Made by a program: the position numbers and the translations under genes
The notes under the pieces: generated by a model
What the model was told of the DNA's origin: nothing
Databases searched by the model: none
Seen by the model: the letters and a program-made list of their open reading frames with translations, nothing else
Assembly (NCBI GenBank): GCA_022841625.1
Contig: JALHRD010000006.1
Span: 1 to 64,000, forward strand
DNA: 64,000 nt
Source of the DNA: Xanthobacteraceae bacterium
Lineage (GTDB): Bacteria; Pseudomonadota; Alphaproteobacteria; Rhizobiales; Xanthobacteraceae
Direction: 5' to 3'
Shown here: one piece after another, positions 3,497 to 64,000 of the stretch
How positions within the stretch are numbered: the first letter of the stretch is position 1
Layout of the letters: each line of letters opens with the position of its first letter

Positions 3497-4264
3497 ATGC
3501 TCCACGCAACGTCGCTGACATCGCTAAACGGCATTCGCCACGCCTTCTTCACGCGTCATGGCGGCGTCTCAACCGGACTCTATGCAAGCCTGAACGGCGG
3601 CGTCGGCTCGCGCGACGCACCGGATTGCGTGGCGGAAAATCGCGCACGAATGGCCGCAGCACTCGGCGTTCACCCGGATCGTTTCCTGACCCCCTACCAA
3701 ATCCATTCGCCCGATGTGGTCACCGTCGAGCAGCCATGGACGCCGGATGCGGGACCGCGCGCCGATGCTCTGGTCACGCAAGGCTGCGGCATTGCCATCG
3801 GCGTGTCGACTGCCGATTGTGGACCTATTCTGTTTGCCGACGCGAATGCAGGCGTCATCGGCGCCGCGCATGCCGGCTGGCGCGGCGCGTTGACCGGCGT
3901 AATCGAAGCGACGGTCGCGGCCATGGAGCGCTGCGGTGCGAACCGCAACGCTATCGTCGCTGCGACCGGCCCGATGATCCGGCAATCCAATTATGAGGTC
4001 GGCCCGGAATTCGTCGATCGCTTCACATCGGACAACGCAGCCAATGCGCATTTCTTTACGCCAAGCGTTAAACCGGGCCATGCTATGTTCGATCTCAACG
4101 GCTATATCGCAGCGCGGCTTTCGAGCGCCGGCATCGGCCGCATCGAAGATCTCGGCCGATGTACCTATGCCGATGCCGATTCATTCTACAGCTATCGGCG
4201 GTCGGTGCATCGCAACGAGGCCGATTACGGGCGGCACATCAACGCCATCGCGCTGTCGGACTAA
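3497..4264 (+). CDS. pgeF: Multicopper polyphenol oxidase/purine nucleoside phosphorylase family protein (YfiH/LACC1 type)
   Basis: The 255-residue protein carries the family's metal-site motifs in order: YQIHSPDV (His), STADCGPILF (Cys) and AAHAGWRGALTGV (His). It ends with the usual Y-x-Y-R segment (SFYSYRRS). Members act as purine nucleoside phosphorylases/adenosine deaminases, and the E. coli member also affects fidelity of peptidoglycan precursors. The later GPCI-like loop here reads GPMIRQSNYEVG, so a commonly conserved Cys is replaced by Met. It is the last gene of the lgt-midA-pgeF operon. Confidence 0.88.
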   Translation: MLHATSLTSLNGIRHAFFTRHGGVSTGLYASLNGGVGSRDAPDCVAENRARMAAALGVHPDRFLTPYQIHSPDVVTVEQPWTPDAGPRADALVTQGCGIAIGVSTADCGPILFADANAGVIGAAHAGWRGALTGVIEATVAAMERCGANRNAIVAATGPMIRQSNYEVGPEFVDRFTSDNAANAHFFTPSVKPGHAMFDLNGYIAARLSSAGIGRIEDLGRCTYADADSFYSYRRSVHRNEADYGRHINAIALSD

Positions 4265-4450
4265 CCGGTCGGATTAGCCATTGCGGTGGCGCCATTCCCG
4301 CGGGAGCCCGCGCGGGCGCACAGCGAAAAACCCGCGAAATTCGTGGACTTTCGGGCCGTGTCGTATTGCCAGCCATATTGCGGGCTTGTTATCAGGTCGC
4401 CGCCATGTGATCGGGTGAGCCTCAGTACCCGACGAGCCTTGGAGACTGCG

Positions 4451-5404
4451 ATGGCCACCAATAACGGCGTGATCAAGCTGGTCGCCGGCAACTCCAACCC
4501 GGCCCTATCTGGGGCCATCGCCGCCCATCTTGGCGTCCCGCTGACCAAGGCGGTGGTCCGGCGCTTCGCGGACATGGAGATTTTCGTCGAAATTCAGGAA
4601 AACGTCCGCGGCTCGGACGTGTTCGTCATCCAATCGACCTCGTTTCCCACCAACGACCACCTGATGGAACTGCTGATCATCATCGACGCCCTGCGCCGTG
4701 CATCAGGGCGGCGCATTACGGCGGTTATCCCCTATTTCGGCTATGCCCGACAGGATCGCAAACCCGGCCCACGGACACCGATCTCTGCCAAATTGGTCGC
4801 CAATCTGATCACCACGGCAGGCGCCAACCGAGTGATGACCCTCGATCTCCACGCCGGCCAGATTCAAGGCTTCTTCGACATTCCGACCGACAATCTCTAT
4901 GCGTCCCCGATGATGGTGCGCGACATCAGGGAGCGGTTTGACCTCGATAAGCTTATGGTGATTTCGCCGGATGTCGGCGGTGTGGCGCGGGCGCGCGGCC
5001 TTGGCAAACGCATCAATGCGCCGCTCGCCATTGTCGACAAGCGCCGCGAGCGACCCGGCGAATCCGAGGTCATGAGCGTGATCGGCGACGTCAAAGGACG
5101 CACCTGCATCCTGGTCGACGACATCATCGATTCCGGCGGCACCATCGTGAATGCGGCCGACGCCCTGCTCGAGAAGGGCGCCACCTCGGTTTATGCCTAT
5201 ATCACCCATGGCGTGCTGTCGGGCGGCGCGGTGGCCCGCCTTGCGAAATCTCGGCTCAAGGAACTGGTGATTACGGATTCGATTCAGCCGACCGAGGCCG
5301 TCGCCACGGCGCCCAATATCCGAATCCTCTCCACTGCGCCCCTGATCGGCGAGGCGATCGGCCGAACCGCCAACGAAGAATCGGTGTCGAGCCTGTTCGA
5401 CTGA
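4451..5404 (+). CDS. prs: Ribose-phosphate pyrophosphokinase (PRPP synthetase)
   Basis: Makes PRPP from ribose 5-phosphate and ATP for nucleotide, His and Trp synthesis. The 317-residue protein starts [20 protein letters not shown] behind a GGAGA site at 4441-4445. Motifs include [20 protein letters not shown] (ATP/flexible loop), [18 protein letters not shown] and the PRPP-binding loop [14 protein letters not shown]. Length matches bacterial class I enzymes. Extending the frame upstream to 4286 adds unrelated sequence, so this start is preferred. It has its own upstream region of about 185 bases after pgeF. Confidence 0.97.
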
Positions 5405-53520: not shown

Positions 53521-53598
53521 CGGGGGCGAATTGCGGCCGACCCTCGCGAAAGCCGGTATCGATGGTTAGATTTGCGCTTGTCGAATCAGGTTTTTGTC

Positions 53599-55401
53599 AT
53601 GCCCGTCCGTCAGCTCAGCGAAGCCACCGTCAACCGCATCGCCGCCGGCGAGGTGGTCGAACGGCCGGCGAGCGTGGTCAAGGAACTCACCGAGAACGCG
53701 CTCGACGCCGGCGCGACCAAAATCGAGATCCTCACCGATGGCGGCGGCCGCCGGCTGATCCGCGTCACCGACGACGGCGACGGCATGACCGGCGCCGACC
53801 TCACCCTTGCGGTCGATCGCCATGCCACCTCCAAACTCAATGATGACGACCTGCTCGATATCAGAACGCTGGGTTTTCGCGGCGAGGCGCTGCCATCGAT
53901 CGGGTCGGTGGCGCATCTCAGCATCACCACGCGCCACAACAGCGAGCCGCATGCCTGGAGCATCGCCGTCGACGGCGGCGAGAAGTCCGAGCTCAAGCCG
54001 GCCGCGCTTGGCGCGGGCACCCGGGTCGAAGTGCGCGACCTGTTCTATGCCACGCCGGCGCGGTTGAAATTTCTCAAGAGCGATCGCACTGAAGGCGAGA
54101 ACATCCGCGAAACTATACGCCGCCTGGCTATGAGCCGCCCGGACGTTGCTTTCACACTCGCTGGCGAGGAGCGCGCGCCGATCACTTGGGCTGCGGCGCT
54201 GCCCGGCGCCCCTGGCCGGCTGGCGCGCCTGGCCGACATTCTCGGCCATGAATTCCGCGCCAATGCGGTCGAGGTGCGTGGCGAGCGCAACGGCATCGCC
54301 GTCGAGGGCTTTGCTGCGCTGCCGACCCACACCCGCGCCAATGCGCTTGGGCAATATCTTTTCGTCAACGGCCGGCCGGTGCGCGACAAACTGTTGATCG
54401 GCGTGGTGCGCGGCGCCTATGCCGATTATCTGCCGCGCGATCGCCATCCGATCGTCGCGCTATTTGTGACGCTCGATCCGCGCGAGGTCGATGTCAATGT
54501 GCATCCGGCCAAGGCCGAAGTACGCTTCCGCGATCCCGCGCTGGTGCGCGCGGTGCTGATCACATCCCTGCAGCAAGCGCTGGTGCGCGAGGGCCAGCGC
54601 GCCGCGACCAGCGGCGGCAGCGCCACCATTGCCGCCTTCCGACCCGCGACGACGACGCGTCCCGGCTGGGACTGGCGGCGCTCGCCGGCCTATCCACCCT
54701 TGTCGACCCATGGCAACGCCGCGCTCGGTTTTGCGGAAGCGGCGCAGGCCGCCTTCGACGTCGGCGGCCCATCGGCCGATGCACGGGTCGCAGTCGCCGA
54801 AGCGACCGCCGACCTGATCGATAATCCGCTCGGCGCCGCCCGGGCCCAGGTGCATGAGACCTATATCGTCGCACAAACCCGCGACGGCATTGTCATTGTC
54901 GACCAGCACGCCGCGCACGAGCGCATCGTCTATGAGCGCATGAAGGCGGCGCTGGAAAAAGCCGGCGTTGCGCGTCAGATCCTGCTGATCCCGGAAATCG
55001 TCGAATTGGACGAGGCCGCTGTCGAGCGCGTTCTGGCGCGCGCCGACGAACTGTCGCGCTATGGACTAGCCATCGAACCGTTCGGCCCCGGCGCGGTCGC
55101 GGTACGCGAGACCCCCTCCATGCTAGGCCACATCGATGCCCGCGCGCTGATCCGCGACCTGTCCGAACACATCGCCGAATGGGACGAAGCGCTGCCGCTG
55201 GAGCGCCGGCTGATGCACGTTGCCTCCACCATGGCCTGCCATGGCTCGGTGCGCGCCGGCCGCCGCCTCAAGCCCGAAGAAATGAATGCTCTGCTGCGCG
55301 AGATGGAAGCGACGCCGAATTCCGGCCAGTGCAATCACGGCCGCCCGACCTATGTCGAATTGAAGCTCAGCGATATCGAATCGCTGTTCGGTCGGCGGTG
55401 A
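53599..55401 (+). CDS. mutL: DNA mismatch repair endonuclease MutL
   Basis: The 600-residue protein has the GHKL ATPase domain ([52 protein letters not shown]), a Pro/Ala linker and a C-terminal dimerisation/endonuclease domain. The nuclease motif DQHA-x2-E-x4-E is intact ([12 protein letters not shown]), with ACHGSVRAG and CNHGRPT, so this MutL should nick DNA itself, as in bacteria without MutH. Its last 106 bases are repeated 1,990 bases downstream, after an inserted LysR/binding-protein module. The start at 53599 ([20 protein letters not shown]) follows the family. Confidence 0.96.
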
Positions 55402-55409: not shown

Positions 55410-56315
55410 TCAGACGATCGACGTTCGTGCCGCCACTGCCGGCGCGCTTGACTGCATGCAAGCCGCAAAGGTGCGCAACGCGGCGTCCTCATGCGTGACG
55501 CGGCGGCGCACGAAGAGGGTTTCAACCCGGCTTTGAGAGCTCTTGAGCGCGTGCGCGCTGATGCTCCCATTCAGCTCGCTGCGCGCGACAACGGTGCGCG
55601 GGAGGAGCGCCACACCCACATCGGCGGCCACGCAGCCGATGATCCCGTCGAGAGTTCCGAACTCCAATCGTGTGGTGCAGGGCCAACCAAATTCCGCAAA
55701 AACCTGTTCGAGCCGCTGCCTGTAGGAGCAGCCAGTGCGGAATACGAGAGCGGTGGGACCTGCTTCGGGCGTTCCCTTGCGCAACGCAGCGAGGCTCGCC
55801 CAGCGCCTCGCCGTGACGAGCACAAGTTCTTCCTTGAAGGCGGAGACGACCGTGAGATCAGGATGATCAATGGGGCCGGCAACGAAGGCACCGTCGAGCG
55901 ACCTGTCGAGGACTGCCGCAACGAGCGCCGCCGTAGGACCGGTGCGCAGGGTCAACTGCACCGCCGGGCAAGCCTGGTGGAAGCGGGCGAGCAGGGGCGG
56001 CAGGCGAACGGCCGCGGTCGTTTCCATGGCGCCGATCGCCAGCGGTCCCTTGGGAACACCATCGTCACGGGTTGCAGCCATGGCTTCTCGCGAGAGCGCT
56101 GCCAGCCGTTCGACATAGGGTAACAGCCGCCGCCCGGCTCCGGTCAGCGTCATACCGCGACTATGCCGCTCGAACAGGGGGACGCCAACCTCGGCCTCAA
56201 GAGCCCTGATCCGGCTGGTTACATTCGACTGCACCGTTCTGAGTTCCCCGGCGGCGCGGGTGATGCCGCCACAGCGGGCGACGGCCGAGAAGGTGGAAAG
56301 ATCTGAAAATTCCAT
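55410..56315 (-). CDS. LysR-family regulator in the inserted module
   Basis: The 301-residue LysR protein has a winged helix (FSDLSTFSAVARCGGITRAA, LRTVQSNVTSRIRALEAEVG) and a substrate-binding effector domain. It is divergent from a periplasmic binding-protein gene with 108 bases between the starts, where TTGAGA (56335-56340) and TCTCAA (56365-56370) form a spaced inverted repeat. It ends eight bases after mutL, in convergent orientation, and lies within the segment bracketed by the duplicated mutL end. It probably controls the divergent gene. Confidence 0.87.
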   Translation of the reverse strand: MEFSDLSTFSAVARCGGITRAAGELRTVQSNVTSRIRALEAEVGVPLFERHSRGMTLTGAGRRLLPYVERLAALSREAMAATRDDGVPKGPLAIGAMETTAAVRLPPLLARFHQACPAVQLTLRTGPTAALVAAVLDRSLDGAFVAGPIDHPDLTVVSAFKEELVLVTARRWASLAALRKGTPEAGPTALVFRTGCSYRQRLEQVFAEFGWPCTTRLEFGTLDGIIGCVAADVGVALLPRTVVARSELNGSISAHALKSSQSRVETLFVRRRVTHEDAALRTFAACMQSSAPAVAARTSIV

Positions 56316-56423
56316 CGCCGCACCCGATCTGTATTTGAGATGGGATCCTTCTTTACAAACTATTTCTCAAGAACGCTAGCCGCGCTTAGACTGCAGGCTG
56401 GATTGAACTCGGAGGGATTGCCC

Positions 56424-57218
56424 ATGCCGACCCACACCGACCCGAACAGACTGCTGCGCATAAAGCACAAACTGGCTCCCACAGCGGCGGTCGGCTTTCT
56501 CGTGATGTTGACAACGGCAGTTGCGGCACCGGCCGCAGAAATCAAGGTATTCAGCACCATTGGCATCAGGGCTGTTATGCAGGAACTGGGCCCCGTGTTC
56601 GAGCGCGCGACAAAACACAAGTTAACGACAACATTCGATGTGGCCGCCGCGTTGAAACGACGGATCGACGCGGGCGAGAAGTTTGACGTCGCGATCCTCA
56701 CTGTGCCGATCATCGACGACCTGATCAAACAGGACAAAATTGTCGCCGGGACACGCGTTGACGTCGCGCGCGGCGGAATGGGCTTGGCCGTGCGCACCGG
56801 CGCGCCCAAGCCAGACATCAGCTCCGTAGAGGCGCTGAAGCGCACGCTGCTCAGCGCAAAATCAATCGCCTACCCAAAGGAGGGCTTGGTCGGCATAAAC
56901 TTTGTGCGCATCCAGGAACGCCTTGAGATCGCCGAAGACATCAAACCCAAGGCCAAGCTGACAGGTGCCGACAGTCCCGCCGGACTCGTGGCGCGCGGCG
57001 AGGCGGAAATTGCCGTGCATCTCATCCCTGAACTGTTGGCCGTGCCGGGTGTTGAACTTCTCGGTCCTTTTCCACCACAGCTGCAATATTACGTCATTCT
57101 CCCCGGCGGCGTGGGGGCCAATGCCGGGGAGCCACAGGCCGCCAAGGAATTGCTGCAGTTCCTCATCGGGCCGGCCGCAAACACCGTCATGAAGGCGAGA
57201 GGTTATGAGCCCGGGTAA
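56424..57218 (+). CDS. Orphan periplasmic binding protein, ModA-like (PBP type 2)
   Basis: The 264-residue protein has a signal peptide ([18 protein letters not shown], mature start EIKVFST) behind GGAGGG. The fold is of the molybdate-binding ModA type: [20 protein letters not shown], a central [38 protein letters not shown], and a late [18 protein letters not shown]. No ABC permease or ATPase gene is nearby. The ligand is probably an oxyanion or small organic acid; binding residues could not be assigned. It is co-located with the divergent LysR gene inside the mutL-flanked insertion. Confidence 0.85.
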
Positions 57219-57287
57219 ACACCGGCGACGTGGCCGCATGTCGAGAAACGATCGCGCACTTTTCTCGGGTAACGCATACGAACCTAA

Positions 57288-57391
57288 GCGAGATGGAAGC
57301 GACGCCGAATGCCGGCCAGTGCAACCACGGCCGTCCGACCTATGTCGAGATGAAGCTCAACGACATCGAAACGCTGTTCGGGCGGCGGTGA
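57288..57391 (+). pseudogene. Duplicated 3' fragment of mutL
   Basis: This fragment keeps the mutL frame to the stop ([17 protein letters not shown], then [16 protein letters not shown]). Relative to the intact gene, five of nine base changes are synonymous and four give conservative replacements (Ser-Ala, Leu-Met, Ser-Asn, Ser-Thr), so it evolved as functional coding sequence before being separated. It has no ribosome-binding site and is not expected to be translated. Confidence 0.85.
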
Positions 57392-57437
57392 TCCCTGATC
57401 ATCCCGACCCTGCATTGTGCGCCGATCACGCCGCGGC

Positions 57438-57701
57438 TCACTTGATCGAGCCGGATACGCGCAGGATGTAGCTGAGAACCTCGGCCACCGCGCGATAGAG
57501 GCTTTCCGGAATTTCCTGCTCGATATCGATACGCGACAGCGCCGCCGCCAGGCTGGGATTTTCCGATATTGGCACGCCACTCGCCTCGGCCAGGTCGATG
57601 ATGCGCCGCGCCGCAACTCCGCGACCGATGGCGGTAACGCGCGGCGCATTCGGCTTTTCGTATTTCAACGCAACCGCCAGAGCATTCGGGTTGTCGCTCA
57701 T
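57438..57701 (-). CDS. FlhB C-terminal-like protein (EscU/YscU/HrcU family, FlhX type)
   Basis: The 87-residue protein matches the cytosolic C-terminal domain of the flagellar/type III switch protein: ALAVALKYEKPNAPRVTAIG, AEASGVPISENPSLAAAL and IPESLYRAVAEVL. The autocleavage NPTH site is replaced by NPNA, so no self-cleavage is expected. Such stand-alone FlhX proteins can partly replace FlhB-C in specificity switching. Its start overlaps the stop of the FliK-like gene (ATGA), and a CtrA-type site lies upstream of the pair. Confidence 0.88.
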   Translation of the reverse strand: MSDNPNALAVALKYEKPNAPRVTAIGRGVAARRIIDLAEASGVPISENPSLAAALSRIDIEQEIPESLYRAVAEVLSYILRVSGSIK

Positions 57702-59353
57702 GTTGCCTGATCCAGGAAATGGCCCGGCCCGGCCGCCGATCCTTGCGGCGTGCCGGCATGGCAGAGCAGCCGGCCCGGCTCGAGGTCCACGCTGCGCAGC
57801 CCGGCTTCGAGCAGCGGCAGTTCGCGCGCCAAGCGATTGGCGCTTTCGTCGCGTTCCGCTTTCAGCGTCACCGCGGCGCGATCGCCGATCAGGCCGATCC
57901 GCGCATGCACCGGACCGATCGGTTCGAGATTGATCGAGAAGTTGACCCGCCAGATCGGGACGTCACCCTCCGCGGTCCGTTCGGCGCCGTCACGCTCGAT
58001 CCGCATTTGGGCAATGGCCGTGCCTTGCCCGTTGGTCAGCGGAATGTCGAACGTCAAATGGGTGGAAGCGTCTCCGCGCGGCCGGGCGCCGCTGCTGGCC
58101 TCCTCCGGCAGCGACGCAATCTGCAACAAAGTCTGACGCGCGAGCGCCGCATCGGTTTCGTTGAGCAGTTGGCGCGCCATCTCCGCCGGCGCCGCCTCAG
58201 CCGGAAGCGTCGCAGGGACCGCCAGCTGCGGCAAAGTCGGCGTGTTACGGAAGGGCAAAACCGGACCGGACGCGCGGGCCGCACCCAGCGACTCGCCGGT
58301 AGACGGCGTTGTGGGCATCGCCTCCCTAAGAGCGGTCGGCGTGGCGTCCAGCCAATTTTTCAGTGCCGCGCGCAGATCGAGCAAGGCCGACCGGAGATCG
58401 ACCGGCATTGGCCGCACGCCCTGGGCCGGATCGGTCACCAGACCCGAACGCAGCAAGGCATTCTTGATCCCGTCGGCATCGACCTCAGCGCGGATATCGA
58501 GCCGCAATGCCAACAATTGCCGCGCCGCGGCGACAACCGGCGGCGGAACCTCCGGTCGCGCAAATGCTGCTTCGAGATTGGCATAGAGCGGGGCCAAACC
58601 GCCCTGGCGCAGGGTGGCATTGCCGACCAGAGCCGCAACCGACTTGACCGCCACCGCGACTGCATCCGGCGCAAGTGAATGGGGTGCAAGTGAATGGGGC
58701 GCAATTGCATCGGGCGCGGGCGCCACCGGACCGCGCAACGCGCCGTCCGGCAGCGCCTTTGCGACGGTTCCGACCGCCGAAGCGTTTGGCGACGGCGTTG
58801 CGGCGGAGCGCGGTACAGTTTGCGGCGCTGCGCCGCCGGGAAGTTCTGGCAACGGCCGCAGCACCAGCCGGGGCCGTGCTGGCGGACCCTCGATCGAAAG
58901 CTCCAGTCGCGTCGCCGGCGACGCCGCGCGCGGCGCAAGCGCCGGATCCGGCTGCGTACGGCTGGCCTCGAGATTCACCAAACGCGGGCCTGCGCCAACC
59001 GCGACCGGCTTGCCATCCGGATCAACGGCCGGCGGATTGGATGGTTGAGCCGCCGAACTGCGCGGCACGACTTGCTGCGCCAATTGGCCGGAAGACGCAG
59101 GGATGGGCCGCAGCACCAGCTTGGGCTGCGACGCTGGGCCCTCGAGCGCGAGCGCAACCCGCGTGCCCGGCGCGAGTTGTAGATCGGTCTTGAGATCGAG
59201 TGTCCCGTCGCCGAACAAAAGCCGCAGCGTCATGTCGGTGAGTTGCGCCTGCACCACGGCGTTCAGAACGGCCTCGGACTGTAGGCTCGGCAATGCGGGT
59301 GCGGCCACATTGGCGGCGGCGGTCGCGAGCGGCGGCAGGACGACGGGGGTCAT
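57698..59353 (-). CDS. FliK-like hook-length control protein
   Basis: The 551-residue protein has a long Pro/Ala-rich N-terminal part and a C-terminal Flg_hook-type domain (about 420-535: HLTFDIPLTNGQGTAIAQMR, WRVNFSINLEPIGPVHARIG, RLARELPLLEAGLRSVDLEP). The N-terminal part contains an internal duplication: residues about 62-101 and 146-185 share GTRxxLxxEGPxxxPxLVLR and VPRSxA. A short tandem APHSLAPHSLAPDAV lies near the middle. It is co-translated with the FlhB-like gene, and its upstream region carries TTAA-N7-TTAA. It may set hook length or the length of another exported structure. Confidence 0.85.
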   Translation of the reverse strand: MTPVVLPPLATAAANVAAPALPSLQSEAVLNAVVQAQLTDMTLRLLFGDGTLDLKTDLQLAPGTRVALALEGPASQPKLVLRPIPASSGQLAQQVVPRSSAAQPSNPPAVDPDGKPVAVGAGPRLVNLEASRTQPDPALAPRAASPATRLELSIEGPPARPRLVLRPLPELPGGAAPQTVPRSAATPSPNASAVGTVAKALPDGALRGPVAPAPDAIAPHSLAPHSLAPDAVAVAVKSVAALVGNATLRQGGLAPLYANLEAAFARPEVPPPVVAAARQLLALRLDIRAEVDADGIKNALLRSGLVTDPAQGVRPMPVDLRSALLDLRAALKNWLDATPTALREAMPTTPSTGESLGAARASGPVLPFRNTPTLPQLAVPATLPAEAAPAEMARQLLNETDAALARQTLLQIASLPEEASSGARPRGDASTHLTFDIPLTNGQGTAIAQMRIERDGAERTAEGDVPIWRVNFSINLEPIGPVHARIGLIGDRAAVTLKAERDESANRLARELPLLEAGLRSVDLEPGRLLCHAGTPQGSAAGPGHFLDQAT

Positions 59354-59402
59354 ACAGGGACAATCGAACGCATGAGGGTCGCTTGAAGCTAGCGCTTGGT
59401 CG

Positions 59403-59417
59403 TTAATCGCCTATTAA
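59403..59417. promoter_or_regulatory. CtrA-type site TTAA-N7-TTAA upstream of fliK-like gene
   Basis: TTAA (59403-59406), seven bases, then TTAA (59414-59417) with a following C match the full CtrA-box consensus. It is 50 bases upstream of the FliK-like start and 96 bases upstream of the divergent Bug gene. CtrA controls flagellar genes in many alphaproteobacteria; binding here is inferred. Confidence 0.5.
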
Positions 59418-59512
59418 CTGTAAGACCAATGACCCAGAATGATCACAAAGCTTTATCTTGTGGCCCAGCCAAGCATCGATCGTGTTTGGCCGCGCAAAGC
59501 CAGGAGACCACA

Positions 59513-60496
59513 ATGTCCGTACGCATGATTGATGTCGTGACTGGTGCCATACTGCTCATTGCGAGCTCGGCCGCAGCGCAGGAGTGGCAGCCATCCCGAC
59601 CGATCACCATGGTGGTGCCGTTCGCAGCCGGCGGACAGGTCGACGTGCTGGGTCGCGTGCTGGCGCCGCGGCTGGGCGAGATCCTCGGTCAACAGATCGT
59701 GGTGGAGAATGTCGGCGGTGGCGGCGGAATGATCGGCTCAAGCCGCGTAGCGCGCGGCGCGCCCGACGGCCATTTGTTCGTGCTTGGCTCAATCAGCACG
59801 CACACGTTCAATCAAACACTGTTCAAGCAGCCGCTCTACAACGTGACCACCGACTTCACGCCGGTCGCACTGATCGCGGAAACCCCGCTGGTGCTGGTGA
59901 CGCGCAAGGATCTGCCGGCAAGCAACCTGAAGGAATTCGCGGCCTTCGTCAAAGCGCGCGGCGACAAAGCGACCTATGGCTCGGCTGGGGTCGGGTCGGC
60001 CAATCACCTGAGTTGCATTCTACTCGATATGGCGATCGGCACAACGACGACCCATGTTCCCTATCGCAGCGGCGGACTGGCAATGCAGGACCTAGTGGGC
60101 GGGCAAATCGATTTCAATTGCAACGTCGTGTCGAGCGCGCTGCCGCAAATCAACGGCAAGCTGGTGAACACCATTGCCATGCTGTCGCGCGCGCGCATCG
60201 CGGCATTGCCGGACGTGCCGACCGCCCAAGAGCAAGGGCTCGCCGACTTCGACGCCAGCACCTGGAATGGCGTGTTCCTGCCACCGCGCGCGCCGCCGGC
60301 GATCGTCAACCGGCTCAATGCCGCGATCCTCGAAGCAATGCGGACGCCACAGCTGCAAAGCCGCGCCCAGGAAATCGGCGCGTCCCTGGTCGCAGCCGAT
60401 CGCCGTTCGCCCGACTACTTCGCCAAATTCGTGCGCGAGGAGATCGAAAAATGGGGCAAGACCATCCGCGCCGCCGGGATTGCCGGCTCCATGTGA
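59513..60496 (+). CDS. Bug-family periplasmic binding protein, tandem copy 1
   Basis: The 327-residue protein has a signal peptide cleaved before QEWQPSRP, then ITMVVPFAAGGQVDVLGRVL, GQQIVVENVGGGGGMIGSSR and PYRSGGLAMQDLVGGQIDFN. CAGGAG precedes the ATG. It is the first of four consecutive Bug/TctC-like genes; its ligand loop (SISTHTFNQTL) differs from its neighbours. No TctA or TctB gene is present in the window. Bug ligands are usually carboxylates, aromatic acids or amides, and the specific ligand is unknown. Confidence 0.93.
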   Translation: MSVRMIDVVTGAILLIASSAAAQEWQPSRPITMVVPFAAGGQVDVLGRVLAPRLGEILGQQIVVENVGGGGGMIGSSRVARGAPDGHLFVLGSISTHTFNQTLFKQPLYNVTTDFTPVALIAETPLVLVTRKDLPASNLKEFAAFVKARGDKATYGSAGVGSANHLSCILLDMAIGTTTTHVPYRSGGLAMQDLVGGQIDFNCNVVSSALPQINGKLVNTIAMLSRARIAALPDVPTAQEQGLADFDASTWNGVFLPPRAPPAIVNRLNAAILEAMRTPQLQSRAQEIGASLVAADRRSPDYFAKFVREEIEKWGKTIRAAGIAGSM

Positions 60497-60592
60497 CCGG
60501 CCCTGCGTCGACGTCACGCCACCCCTGCGGCTCTATCGCTCTTGATCCGCGCCGGCCAGCGGGCGAGGCTTGGCCAATACAGGAGACTGGAT

Positions 60593-61570
60593 ATGCACAA
60601 GACCATAATCGCCGCCGCGGCCGCCCTTGTCGCGCTCTCCAGCATCGTCACCGCCCAGGACTGGCCGGCAGCGCGGGTCATCACCATGATCATTCCGTTC
60701 GCGCCCGGCGGCGGTGTCGATGCGTCCGGACGCATCCAGGCGCAGCGCATGGGCGAACTTCTGGGACAGACCATCATTGTCGAGAACATCGGCGCCGCCG
60801 CCGGCACCGTCGGCACGGCCCGGGTCGCGAAAGCCACACCCGACGGCTACACCATGCTGATGGGCAACTCCGGCACGCATTCCTATAGCCAAGGGTTGCG
60901 CAAGAATCCGCCCTACAATTCCGTCACCGATTTCGCACCAATCGGGCTGGTGACGGAATCGCCGCGCATCCTGCTGGCGCGCAAGGACCTGCCGGTCAAC
61001 AATCTGCAGGAATTCATCAAATATGTGAAAGCAAACCATGACAAAATGCAGTTCGGCTCGGCCGGCGTCGGCTCCGGCACGCATCTGCCCTGCGAACTCC
61101 TGAATGCGACGCTTGGCGTCAAGGTCACGCACATTCCTTACAAGGGCGCCGCCCCGGTAATGCAGGATCTGATCGGCGGTCGCATCGACTATTTCTGCGA
61201 CACCATCCAGACCGGCGCCGCGCAAGCCAAGGCCGGTACCGTCAAGGGCCTCGCGGTGATGTCGCCCCGACGCGTGCCGATCATCGCGGAGCTTGCCACC
61301 ACCGGCGAGCAGGGCCTTGCCGGAGTTGAGGCGACGGTGTGGAACGGATTCTTCTTCCCCAAGGGAACGCCCGACGCCATCGTGCGCCGCATGAACAAGG
61401 TCATGAACACCATGATCGAAGAGCCGGCGATGCGTAAACGACTGGAAGAACTCGGCCTCGAAATCCTGCCGTCCGAGCAGCGCACGCCCGAATATCTCGC
61501 AAAATATCTGGCGGAAGATGTTGCGCGCTGGAAGAAAGTGATCCTCGACGCCGGTATTCCTGTTGAATGA
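60593..61570 (+). CDS. Bug-family periplasmic binding protein, tandem copy 2
   Basis: The 325-residue protein has a signal peptide (AAAAALVALSSIVTA, mature start QDWPAARV) and Bug motifs ITMIIPFAPGGGVDASGRIQ, GQTIIVENIGAAAGTVGTAR, HIPYKGAAPVMQDLIGGRID and NGFFFPKGTPDAIVRR. ACAGGAGAC precedes the ATG. The ligand-site loop reads GNSGTHSYSQGL. It lies 96 bases after copy 1. Confidence 0.93.
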   Translation: MHKTIIAAAAALVALSSIVTAQDWPAARVITMIIPFAPGGGVDASGRIQAQRMGELLGQTIIVENIGAAAGTVGTARVAKATPDGYTMLMGNSGTHSYSQGLRKNPPYNSVTDFAPIGLVTESPRILLARKDLPVNNLQEFIKYVKANHDKMQFGSAGVGSGTHLPCELLNATLGVKVTHIPYKGAAPVMQDLIGGRIDYFCDTIQTGAAQAKAGTVKGLAVMSPRRVPIIAELATTGEQGLAGVEATVWNGFFFPKGTPDAIVRRMNKVMNTMIEEPAMRKRLEELGLEILPSEQRTPEYLAKYLAEDVARWKKVILDAGIPVE

Positions 61571-61596
61571 GCGCCTGCGACCTTGGGAGGCATACC

Positions 61597-62574
61597 ATGA
61601 TGCGCATATTCGCCGCCGCCACGACCGCATGGTTGGCAACCGCGGCAATGCCCGCGCAAGCCCAGGATTGGCCGAGCCGACCGATCACCATGGTGGTGCC
61701 CTATGCCGCCGGCGGGCCGGTCGACACGATCGCGCGGATTCTCGCCGCCCGCATGGGAGAAACGCTCGGCCAACAGGTCATCATCGAGAACATCGGCGGC
61801 GCCGGCGGCATGACCGGCGCGGCGCGCGTCGCCAAGGCAGCGCCCGACGGATATTCGCTGCTGATGTCCGGCAGTGCCGTCCTTAGCATCAATCAGACGC
61901 TCTATCGGCGGCCGCTCTATAACGGCCTGACCGATTTCGAACACGCCGTATTGAATTCGGATTCTGCGCGCGTTCTGATTGCGCGGCCGGATTTCCCCGC
62001 CACGAATCTCGCCGCGTTCGTCGCTTACGCCAAGGCCAACCACAGCAAGATGCAGTACGGCTCCGCTGGCGCCGGCTCCGGCACGCATGTTTGCGCGGTG
62101 TTGCTCGATGTCGCCATGGGCACCAAGATCACCCATGTGCCCTATCGCGGCGCCGCCCCCGCGATGCAGGATCTGATCGCCGGGCGGATCGATTTCATCG
62201 CTGAGCAGATTTCAACGGCGCTGCCGCAGATCCAAGGCGGCAAGGTCAAGGCGATCGCAACGCTCGGGCTCGACCGCGCGCCCGGCCTCGAAAATCTCGC
62301 GACCGCGGAGGAGACAGGATTGAAGGGCCTCGACTGCGGTTCCTGGGGCTCGTTCTCGTTCCCGAAAGGCACGCCCGAACCGATCGTGCAGCGGCTGGCG
62401 CAGGCATCCAATGAGGCGGTCGAGTCGGCGATGGTGCGCGACCGTTTCCGGGCGATCGGCGTGGTGGTGCCGGCTAAAGAACGCCGAACCATTGCCTATC
62501 TCCGCAAATTCGTCGCGACCGAGACCGAGCGCTGGGCGGCCCCAATCAGGAACAGCGGCGCAGTGATCGACTGA
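61597..62574 (+). CDS. Bug-family periplasmic binding protein, tandem copy 3
   Basis: The 325-residue protein starts MMRIFAAATTAWLATAAMPA, with the mature start at QDWPSRPI. Motifs are ITMVVPYAAGGPVDTIARIL, GQQVIIENIGGAGGMTGAAR and HVPYRGAAPAMQDLIAGRID. The ligand loop SGSAVLSINQTL lacks the TH pair of its neighbours, suggesting a different ligand. TTGGGAGG supports the start at 61597 over an ATG at 61567 that overlaps the previous stop. It is 26 bases after copy 2. Confidence 0.93.
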   Translation: MMRIFAAATTAWLATAAMPAQAQDWPSRPITMVVPYAAGGPVDTIARILAARMGETLGQQVIIENIGGAGGMTGAARVAKAAPDGYSLLMSGSAVLSINQTLYRRPLYNGLTDFEHAVLNSDSARVLIARPDFPATNLAAFVAYAKANHSKMQYGSAGAGSGTHVCAVLLDVAMGTKITHVPYRGAAPAMQDLIAGRIDFIAEQISTALPQIQGGKVKAIATLGLDRAPGLENLATAEETGLKGLDCGSWGSFSFPKGTPEPIVQRLAQASNEAVESAMVRDRFRAIGVVVPAKERRTIAYLRKFVATETERWAAPIRNSGAVID

Positions 62575-62602
62575 TCGCACACGCGGAGCCAGGGAGAAGC
62601 CA

Positions 62603-63580
62603 ATGCCAAAACGCGTGATCGTGGCACTCTCGGCGCTTGCGCTGGCTTGGCATGGCGCCGCCCATGCGCAGGATTGGCCGACCCGGCCGATCACCATGGT
62701 GGTGCCGTTCCCCGCCGGCGGACCGATCGATTTCATTGGCCGGCTGATGGCGCAGAAACTCACCGAAAGCCTCGGCCAACAGGTGATTGTTGAGAATGTC
62801 GGCGGTGCCGGCGGCATGAATGGCGCAGCGCGCGTTGCCAAATCAACGCCCGACGGCTCGATATTCCTGTTCGGCAACCAGGGTACTCATACTTTCAGCC
62901 AGATGCTCTACAAAAAGCCGTTGTATAACGCCGTCGCCGATTTCACACCGGTCGCAGTGGTGGTCGAGAACGTCAAGTTCCTGGCGGTCCGCAAGGACTT
63001 CCCCGCCAATAATCTAAGCGAATTCATCGCCCACGCCAAAGCCAACCAGAAGACTATGCAATACGGCTCGGCGGGAATCGGCTCAGCCACCCACGTTACT
63101 TGCGTGCTGCTCAATCATTCGATTGGCGTCGACATTACCCATGTGCCCTATCGCGGCACCGGACCGGCCTTGCAAGACATGATTGCCGGCCGGATCGATT
63201 ACATGTGCGAGGTGACTTCAACCGGCGCGCCGCACGTCCACGTCAATGCGATCAAGGCGCTCGCGATCCTATCGCCGTCGCGCAACAGCGCCATGCCGGA
63301 TATTCCGACCGCGCATGAACAAGGCTTGGCCAATTTTGACGCCGACGGTTGGAACGCCTTCTTCTTCCCGCGCGGAACTCCCGCGGCAATCGTGCGCAAG
63401 CTCGCCCAAGCGACATCGGCCATCCTTGACGTGCCCGATATGCGCGTGCGACTGGAGAAGGCCGGTCTCAATGTTGCAGTGCCGGAACGACGTAACCCGG
63501 ATTATCTCGGCAGGCTCGTGGCCACCGAATTGGACAAATGGGGTCCACCGGTTCGCGCCAGTGGCGTTAGCGCGGATTAA
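62603..63580 (+). CDS. Bug-family periplasmic binding protein, tandem copy 4
   Basis: The 325-residue protein has a signal peptide (LSALALAWHGAAHA, mature start QDWPTRPI) and motifs ITMVVPFPAGGPIDFIGRLM, GQQVIVENVGGAGGMNGAAR and HVPYRGTGPALQDMIAGRID. The ligand loop is GNQGTHTFSQML. A GGGAGAAG site precedes the ATG, 28 bases after copy 3. By eye copies 3 and 4 look closest. The gene is convergent with rsmD and ends the array. Confidence 0.93.
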   Translation: MPKRVIVALSALALAWHGAAHAQDWPTRPITMVVPFPAGGPIDFIGRLMAQKLTESLGQQVIVENVGGAGGMNGAARVAKSTPDGSIFLFGNQGTHTFSQMLYKKPLYNAVADFTPVAVVVENVKFLAVRKDFPANNLSEFIAHAKANQKTMQYGSAGIGSATHVTCVLLNHSIGVDITHVPYRGTGPALQDMIAGRIDYMCEVTSTGAPHVHVNAIKALAILSPSRNSAMPDIPTAHEQGLANFDADGWNAFFFPRGTPAAIVRKLAQATSAILDVPDMRVRLEKAGLNVAVPERRNPDYLGRLVATELDKWGPPVRASGVSAD

Positions 63581-63597
63581 CGCGCATTGGCGGAGCG

Positions 63598-64000
63598 TCA
63601 GCGCAAGAACACGAGTTCGGTATCGCCATAGCGGCGGCGCTCGATCTCACTGAAGCCGTCCGGCGCGATCGACGGCGTCTCAGCCGCCTCCTCGACCACG
63701 ATCAACGCATTGGGCGCAAGCCAACCACCGGCGCGCGCCGCGACCAAAGTCGGGCCGGCCAGTCCGCGGCCATAAGGCGGGTCGAGAAACACCAGCGAAA
63801 ACGGCTCGATTGGGTGGGCCGGACCGAGTTTGGTCGCGTCGCGTCGATAGACTTTGGTAACGCCGCCAAGCCCGAGCGCATCGATATTGGCGCGGATCAA
63901 GGCGCGCGCCTCCGATCCGTCATCGACAAACAGCGCAAACGCCGCGCCGCGCGACAGCGCCTCAAGCCCGAACGCGCCGGTGCCGGCGAACAGGTCCAGC
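63598..64000 (-). CDS. rsmD: 16S rRNA (guanine(966)-N2)-methyltransferase, 5' end cut by window
   Basis: RsmD methylates G966 of 16S rRNA during 30S assembly. The visible part (about 133 codons) includes the SAM-binding LDLFAGTGAFGLEALSRGAA, FVDDGSEARALIRANIDALG and the catalytic FSLVFLDPPYGRGLAG, ending ERRRYGDTELVFLR. The start lies beyond 64000. It is convergent with the last Bug gene. Confidence 0.94.
   Translation of the reverse strand, partial: LDLFAGTGAFGLEALSRGAAFALFVDDGSEARALIRANIDALGLGGVTKVYRRDATKLGPAHPIEPFSLVFLDPPYGRGLAGPTLVAARAGGWLAPNALIVVEEAAETPSIAPDGFSEIERRRYGDTELVFLR

Follow-up and report, generated by a model that had tools for sequence, protein, structure and literature searches.

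Orphan receptors of the tripartite tricarboxylate transporter (TTT) family have been described in the alphaproteobacterium Rhodoplanes sp. Z2-YC6860, which according to the passages of Rosa et al. (2018, PMC5994714) that deal with it carries 434 TTT receptors in an 8.2-Mb genome (53 per Mb), only nine of them within full TTT operons. The same passages report runs of orphan TctC receptor genes (48 pairs, 6 triples, 3 fours, 1 five and 1 nine), the members of the nine-gene array being mostly less than 50% identical and five of the nine closest to proteins outside the array, and they hold the proposal, made for both Bordetella and Rhodoplanes, that receptors share few TctAB. Here we analyze a comparable array of four TctC (Bug-type) genes, named g1 to g4, located at positions 59513-63580 of a 64,000-nucleotide stretch (the window) that forms the beginning of contig JALHRD010000006.1 (C6:1-64000 of a 179-kb contig) of the Xanthobacteraceae bacterium assembly GCA_022841625.1, a draft genome of 4.90 Mb with completeness 99.99 and contamination 0.58.

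Like the Rhodoplanes arrays, as far as the cited passages describe them, this is an orphan co-directional TctC run with members below 50% identity, some of them nearer to proteins outside, and it is thus a fresh example of the orphan TTT receptor arrays already described in that organism. It differs from that account in having been traced across species at the junction between mutL and rsmD, a site found both closed and partly filled, and in having loops specific to each orthologue group. The Bug proteins of Bordetella belong to the same family and, in the parts of the review devoted to them (PMC5812351), also outnumber TctAB, but come from Betaproteobacteria. Possible additions to what is known are the history of a single array at one definite junction, loops specific to its orthologue groups and a possibly higher TctC density; no paper on such an array at mutL-rsmD was found in a search that covered part of the literature, which is weak evidence of absence. 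Our preferred reading, to which we give roughly a two-in-three probability, is that g1-g4 are old paralogues of one subclade, collected at the mutL-rsmD junction, with their own ligands and with shared membrane partners encoded elsewhere.

Four receptor genes without a dedicated transporter

The four genes lie head to tail on the plus strand with spacers of 96, 26 and 28 bp, as g1 (59513..60496, 327 residues, loop SISTHTFNQ), g2 (60593..61570, 325 residues, loop NSGTHSYSQ), g3 (61597..62574, 325 residues, loop SGSAVLSINQ) and g4 (62603..63580, 325 residues, loop NQGTHTFSQ). Their reading frames are intact, and the sole Pfam match of each is TctC (PF03401), at 194-220 bits for a cut-off of 27 and covering the profile from position 1-3 to 271-273 of 274; NCBIfam matched none of the four at E 0.001. 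These coordinates and matches agree with the original prediction, made from the letters alone, of four neighboring Bug-type genes of 325-327 residues, and the four ligand loops that it quoted are exact. The start codons of g1-g3 are inner ATGs within longer open reading frames (ORFs), the same choice as was made there. Its individual ribosome-binding sites and shared Q(D/E)W mature starts were also recovered by eye: each ATG is preceded by a Shine-Dalgarno-like stretch, and a hydrophobic N-terminus is followed by A/V-x-A and then QEW, QDW, QDW and QDW. The P(F/Y)xxGG loop, between beta1 and alpha1 of the Venus-flytrap fold, was found in all four sequences, although the longer VP(F/Y)xxGG motif that was said to be common to them is present in three, g2 having IPFAPGG.

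No TctA or TctB had been noticed nearby, and neither was detected anywhere on the 179-kb contig, whereas the genome as a whole has 11 TctA and 10 TctB places. The locus thus consists of adjacent co-directional TctC genes without TctAB, and lacks the TctA and TctB that stand beside TctC in a complete TTT transporter (TctCBA). Moreover, 11 TctA and 10 TctB places against probably hundreds of TctC genes fit the proposal that permeases are shared.

The total of TctC genes was estimated by sampling, and probably amounts to about 407 (345-470, the range being counting error alone) in 4.9 Mb, or about 83 per Mb (70-96), compared with the 53 per Mb given for Rhodoplanes Z2-YC6860 in the passages cited above. 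The estimate adds to 229 TctC ORFs, detected in 1,217,500 fetched bases (window included) with a hidden Markov model iterated on the fetched DNA, an extrapolation based on 31 of them, which lie in 32 hand-placed, non-random 20-kb stretches outside known hits. It roughly agrees with the 340 to 388 candidates counted at first look with several queries. The own-genome Pfam search scores at most 150 places, and the union of four own-genome searches, made by hand, contains 179. First-look candidates in two other genomes numbered 436-443 in 6.3 Mb (G001) and 352-360 in 5.3 Mb (G017), which suggests that a wider lineage is involved.

In the fetched DNA the TctC genes are arranged as 159 singles, 21 pairs, 5 triples, 2 fours and 1 five. 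Random placement of about 407 among an assumed 4900 genes, with an assumed strand persistence of 0.75, leads one to expect about 22 pairs and 0.09 co-directional runs of at least four over the whole genome. The fetched DNA, a quarter of the genome and enriched for TctC genes, already contains 21 pairs. Its runs of at least four number three, a count reached in 0 of 2000 simulations: the array in the window, a second run of four at C7:121690-125553 and a run of five at G000:C10:116318-121366 (L167). Long TctC runs thus exceed chance, and the array in the window is one of several.

Kinship and age of the array at the mutL-rsmD junction

In a tree of 209 TctC proteins from the same genome, g1-g4 are four members of a single ten-member clade (FastTree support 99) and do not fall in distant branches, the outcome that the original prediction had named as speaking against local duplication. 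Of the other six members, two stand in tandem on C4, and C2, C13, C30 and C9 have one each. The ten stay together, along with 60 foreign rows, when 177 foreign proteins are combined with 227 own ones in a larger tree (support 100), and the identical ten rank first in own-genome searches with g1 and with g4, for the best 150 places scored in each. ORFs matching fewer than 230 model positions were excluded from the trees, among them two of the 229 own ORFs and one gene adjoining mutL in a relative (L045). The motifs mentioned above are weak evidence of kinship because they are also common elsewhere: VP[FY]xxGG occurs in 68 and Q[DE][WFY] in 41 of 226 own TctC ORFs, and both in 15, so we rejected them as good evidence of local kinship. 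We also rejected the gene at 19.4 kb as a fifth member of the group. The claim that it is a relative holds in the sense of the wider TctC family, but it is 28% identical to g1 and branches elsewhere, with copies on C35, C21, C1 and C5.

Identity among the array mates is 42-48%, and g1 is nearer to the copies on C4 and C2 (54, 54 and 51%, with C4:109323 and C2:6372 at 54% each) than to its mates (43-48%). In the own-genome search, g4 showed 49 and 51% identity to C4:109323 and C2:6372, and 48-49% to its mates. The members of the array are thus mostly below 50% identity and in part nearer to proteins outside it, and they are not mutually closest, as genes from a recent tandem duplication would be.

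Two loci from genomes of the same genus, L039 and L040 (apparently G001 and G003, respectively), carry orthologues at the same site that are 81-91% identical, with the orders mutL-g1-g2-g3-g4-rsmD in L039, a Xanthobacteraceae metagenome-assembled genome, and mutL-g2-g3-g4-rsmD in L040; the g1 orthologue of L039 is 84% identical, and none was seen in L040. More distant metagenome-assembled genomes have mutL-g3-X-g2-rsmD (L043) or mutL-X-g3-g2-rsmD (L047), X being another member of the same clade. The order of L047 recurs in L045 with a first gene that matches only partly; this TctC gene (3884-4903) is possibly damaged. In L050, mutL-X-g3-g4-g2 is followed by a metallo-beta-lactamase-fold gene, another TctC gene and rsmD. 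A tree of 73 proteins, from which four rows of L240 and L241 (repeats of L039 and L040) had been removed, resolved the orthologue clades of g2 (16 rows, support 100/100), g3 (8 rows, 100/100), g4 (4 rows, 100/99) and g1 (2 rows, 100/100), that of g2 being best sampled since the scan of relatives was queried with g2.

As orthologues are 81-91% identical and array mates only 42-48%, the splits between g1, g2, g3 and g4 predate these species, and any duplication must be old; on the same grounds we rejected recent local duplication as the whole story. Synonymous divergence (NG86 dS) is 1.03-1.35 between mates and 0.57-0.88 between orthologues, which is near saturation and dates nothing, so that the argument on age rests on protein identity. 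In addition, the differing order and number of genes among relatives indicate that genes were gained, lost or moved.

The site itself was followed in 37 genomes of the family (G000-G036). In 21 of them, counting the present one, mutL and rsmD share a contig and lie within 10 kb of each other; in the remainder the two are on different contigs, far apart or unmatched, and gaps were read by hand. In the window, mutL (53572..55401, plus strand; NCBIfam NF000953 MutL, 949.5 bits, cut-off 693) corresponds to the left boundary of the site in relatives, and rsmD (63598..64000, minus strand; PF03602), truncated by the end of the window and convergent to mutL and the array, is the right boundary. The 133 residues of the latter that lie within the window gave 101.5 bits with TIGR00095 RsmD, under its cut-off of 117.5. 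The gap between the two convergent genes is shorter than 700 bp in 12 of the 21 family genomes, and 3 bp in two; in other families of the order it is shorter than 700 bp in five of the eight genomes with both genes within 10 kb, and six further genomes of the order have them on a shared contig 11-44 kb apart. Genes of the array clade occupy the gap in five of the 21 (G000, G001, G003, G017 with g3-g2, and G009 with g2 followed by 3.4 kb of other DNA), the filled sites holding one to four of them in varying order. Among the rest of the 21, the gaps inspected were those of G011, G015 and G020, the first two of which showed no TctC gene. On broken contigs, mutL adjoins g2 in G027, and rsmD adjoins g2 or g3 in G002, G004 and G006. 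The simplest reading of these states is that a closed junction was opened by one receptor gene and then filled stepwise, gain and loss being inseparable without a species tree.

Two further observations concern this junction. In G020, from another genus, the gap (L299, G020:C1:109600-111000) is occupied by a TctC gene that belongs to a different branch and is encoded on the other strand than mutL, as though that junction had taken up a receptor gene independently. Beside rsmD in G004 (L297, G004:C354:8100-14000, positions 272-2292), a g3-type TctC frame overlaps a second, partly matching TctC frame (best match g2, about 57%), perhaps through a frameshift or fusion.

The original prediction had read the array as duplication followed by divergence, and its local part stands in so far as the four genes belong to one clade, but not as regards the closeness of the mates, the position of g1 or the age of the splits. 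The fullest form of this explanation is that one ancestral gene at mutL-rsmD was repeatedly duplicated in place, with loops diverging and the six other paralogues moving out later. The branching order among the four orthologue clades is weakly resolved, with g2, g3 and g4 together in the best tree (support 37/73), and a single clade for the four groups is not rejected by the approximately unbiased (AU) test (p 0.195), both of which would suit repeated duplication in place, as would the common clade of ten and the frequency of runs of at least four. On the other side, the free tree is better by 11.8 log-likelihood units than the one in which the four groups are united (a difference that is not significant), the nearest relatives of g1 are the C4 and C2 copies, and some relatives hold g2 alone or g3-g2 at the site. 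The splits may have occurred at this locus or elsewhere, an ancient duplication in place being compatible with the AU value, although we consider plain local duplication rather unlikely as the explanation of the array.

Divergence of the ligand loop and pocket

Thirty proteins from the four orthologue groups were aligned with the terephthalate-binding proteins TphC and TBP (7ndr, 8hka), members of the same family that served for pocket numbering, and the contact, pocket, pincer and hinge residues of TphC, as given in passages of PMC8556258, were transferred through the alignment to the terephthalate-binding chain. When all 301 eight-column alignment windows were ranked by identity within groups (values drawn from g2, g3 and g4) minus identity between groups, the first four (86-93, 84-91, 83-90 and 85-92) all fell over the ligand loop of the original prediction, and the next ones at 111-121 (TphC hinge 115-117), 235-245 (hinge 241-242) and 193-201 (contact 197). 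Ten columns were nearly fixed within groups and different between them at cut-offs of our choice (0.85 within, 0.25 between), and six of the ten were among 20 TphC positions, a list also chosen by us (hypergeometric p 6e-6). A random-column control for the loop gave 0/400, and is biased by the fact that the loop had been picked for its differences; the ranking over all 301 windows is the fairer one. The first ranks of the loop windows, conserved among orthologues and different among paralogues, support the predicted divergence of ligands; together with the group-specific columns and the purifying selection described next, they constitute good, though indirect, evidence that the four receptors would have different specificities that are kept.

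Purifying selection, with dN/dS of 0.05-0.19 against orthologues for all four genes, also bears on the possibility that the array is a drifting, non-functional surplus of a runaway family expansion. Such a surplus would agree with the several hundred family members that the genome probably has and with the copy number at the site, which differs between relatives. However, the constraint on all four genes, their intact frames and the conservation of the 13 TphC contact positions, whose identity within orthologue groups is 0.88-0.96 compared with 0.69-0.73 for the average column, make this already disfavored explanation very improbable.

As for the ligands, g1 and g4 have MatC (6hke) as their best solved relative, and g2 and g3 have BugD (2f5x), with E values from 2.5e-74 to 6.6e-68. 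The ligands of these proteins, malate for MatC and aspartate for BugD according to passages of PMC8556258 and PMC5812351, hint that those of the array may be small dicarboxylates. Likeness to MatC extends to a GTH in the loop and to the two cysteines of g1, g2 and g4, whereas residues 35, 86, 197 and 241 (TphC numbering) differ from MatC and BugD in one or more of the four. Terephthalate-like ligands are not indicated, since the bulky P86 and Q150 of TphC are missing, being replaced by S/N/G/N and A in g1-g4. The g3 protein lacks both the THxxxQ-type loop and the two cysteines of its mates. By eye, these cysteines are common to g1, g2, g4, the other clade members compared and MatC; eight of eight g3-group proteins are without both, and have cysteines instead at HxC and at LDCG or IDCG, as if a disulphide had moved in this group, a pairing at which we only guess.

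The neighbors of the six paralogues elsewhere in the genome were also considered as a clue to ligands, and the ten proteins typed pointed to no consistent one. UbiD and an aspartate dehydrogenase-like gene are found near the C4 pair; two amidohydrolases and one glyoxalase/dioxygenase-like gene are close to the C2 copy, and the C13 copy has glycerol-3-phosphate dehydrogenase- and TsaD-like genes in its vicinity. The C30 copy adjoins an alpha/beta hydrolase, and a dienelactone hydrolase-like gene precedes the pair of which the C9 copy is the second member.

Proposed function of the array and its significance

In the mechanism that we propose, g1-g4 would be exported to the periplasm and act there as Venus-flytrap receptors of TTT (TctC/Bug) type, and each would probably bind a small organic acid of its own. 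As old paralogues they would have gathered where mutL and rsmD converge, a junction that is closed in many relatives, and been kept there by descent with gain, loss and reordering. The loaded receptors would most likely deliver to one TctAB pair or a few that they have in common, or to other partners in the membrane whose genes lie elsewhere, so that the range of ligands would be widened through added receptors and not through added pumps.

Several observations weigh against this reading. The genes are not confined to this site: in L041, X-g3-g2 stands at a contig end and the following 6 kb contain no rsmD, and the DNA fetched from L042, L044, L046, L048 and L049 has g2 orthologues with neither mutL nor rsmD. 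In the fetched stretches or contigs, neither boundary gene had a clade member next to it in G007 and G035, nor did mutL in G004 and G006 or rsmD in G027. The failure of the AU test to reject a single clade counts on the same side. Considered jointly, the 13 contact positions do not differ more between groups (identity 0.49) than the average column does (0.47), and the pocket positions come from alignment to TphC and not from a structure of g1-g4.

The main rival is that g1-g4 form a panel of organic-acid sensors, acting when loaded as co-receptors for histidine kinases or chemoreceptors. Precedents come from BctC of Bordetella, which signals via BctE (in the passages of PMC5812351 on this system), and from Rhodoplanes, where TTT receptor genes are found near 14 of 22 histidine kinase genes (in those of PMC5994714). 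However, no kinase was found among the scanned neighbors in the window, which comprise a LysR-type regulator, an SBP_bac_11 protein, a FliK-like protein, MutL, a glucose-6-phosphate isomerase-like protein and RsmD, and one of nine Pfam-scanned neighbors in related loci is a kinase (HisKA_2, in L041, about 2.6 kb from g2). We consider a sensing array unlikely.

The first three of these neighbors, assigned by Pfam, are the LysR-type regulator (55410-56315, minus strand), the SBP_bac_11 protein (56340-57218, plus strand), weakly ModA-like with 40.8 bits in NCBIfam, under the cut-off of 62.5, and the FliK-like Flg_hook protein (57698-59353, minus strand). Together they make up the approximately 4 kb (55410..59353) that separate mutL from g1 here, and they are not at that place in L039 and L040. 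No RNA element reached the gathering threshold in the window, and a promoter and terminator consensus scan of 59340-63700, in itself uninformative, gave 0 and 0.

A broader view, which we put forward tentatively and regard as doubtful, is that mutL-rsmD is a long-lived accretion site that collects and reshuffles diverged receptors, each keeping its own loop, in a genome with some 70-96 TctC per Mb, above the published record strain, where many receptors would share few permeases. This would amount to a modular, receptor-swapping uptake built by gene accretion.

The reason why some bacteria have hundreds of orphan TTT receptors is unsettled in the literature consulted, and the array offers a small and tractable case, with four receptors that have orthologues in other species, conserved group-specific loops and both closed and partly filled sites. 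It allows experiments on whether the copies are retained for the sake of different ligands and on whether permeases are shared among them. Moreover, our results suggest that the expansion known from one Rhodoplanes strain belongs to a wider lineage, in which the genome studied here is possibly denser in these receptors.

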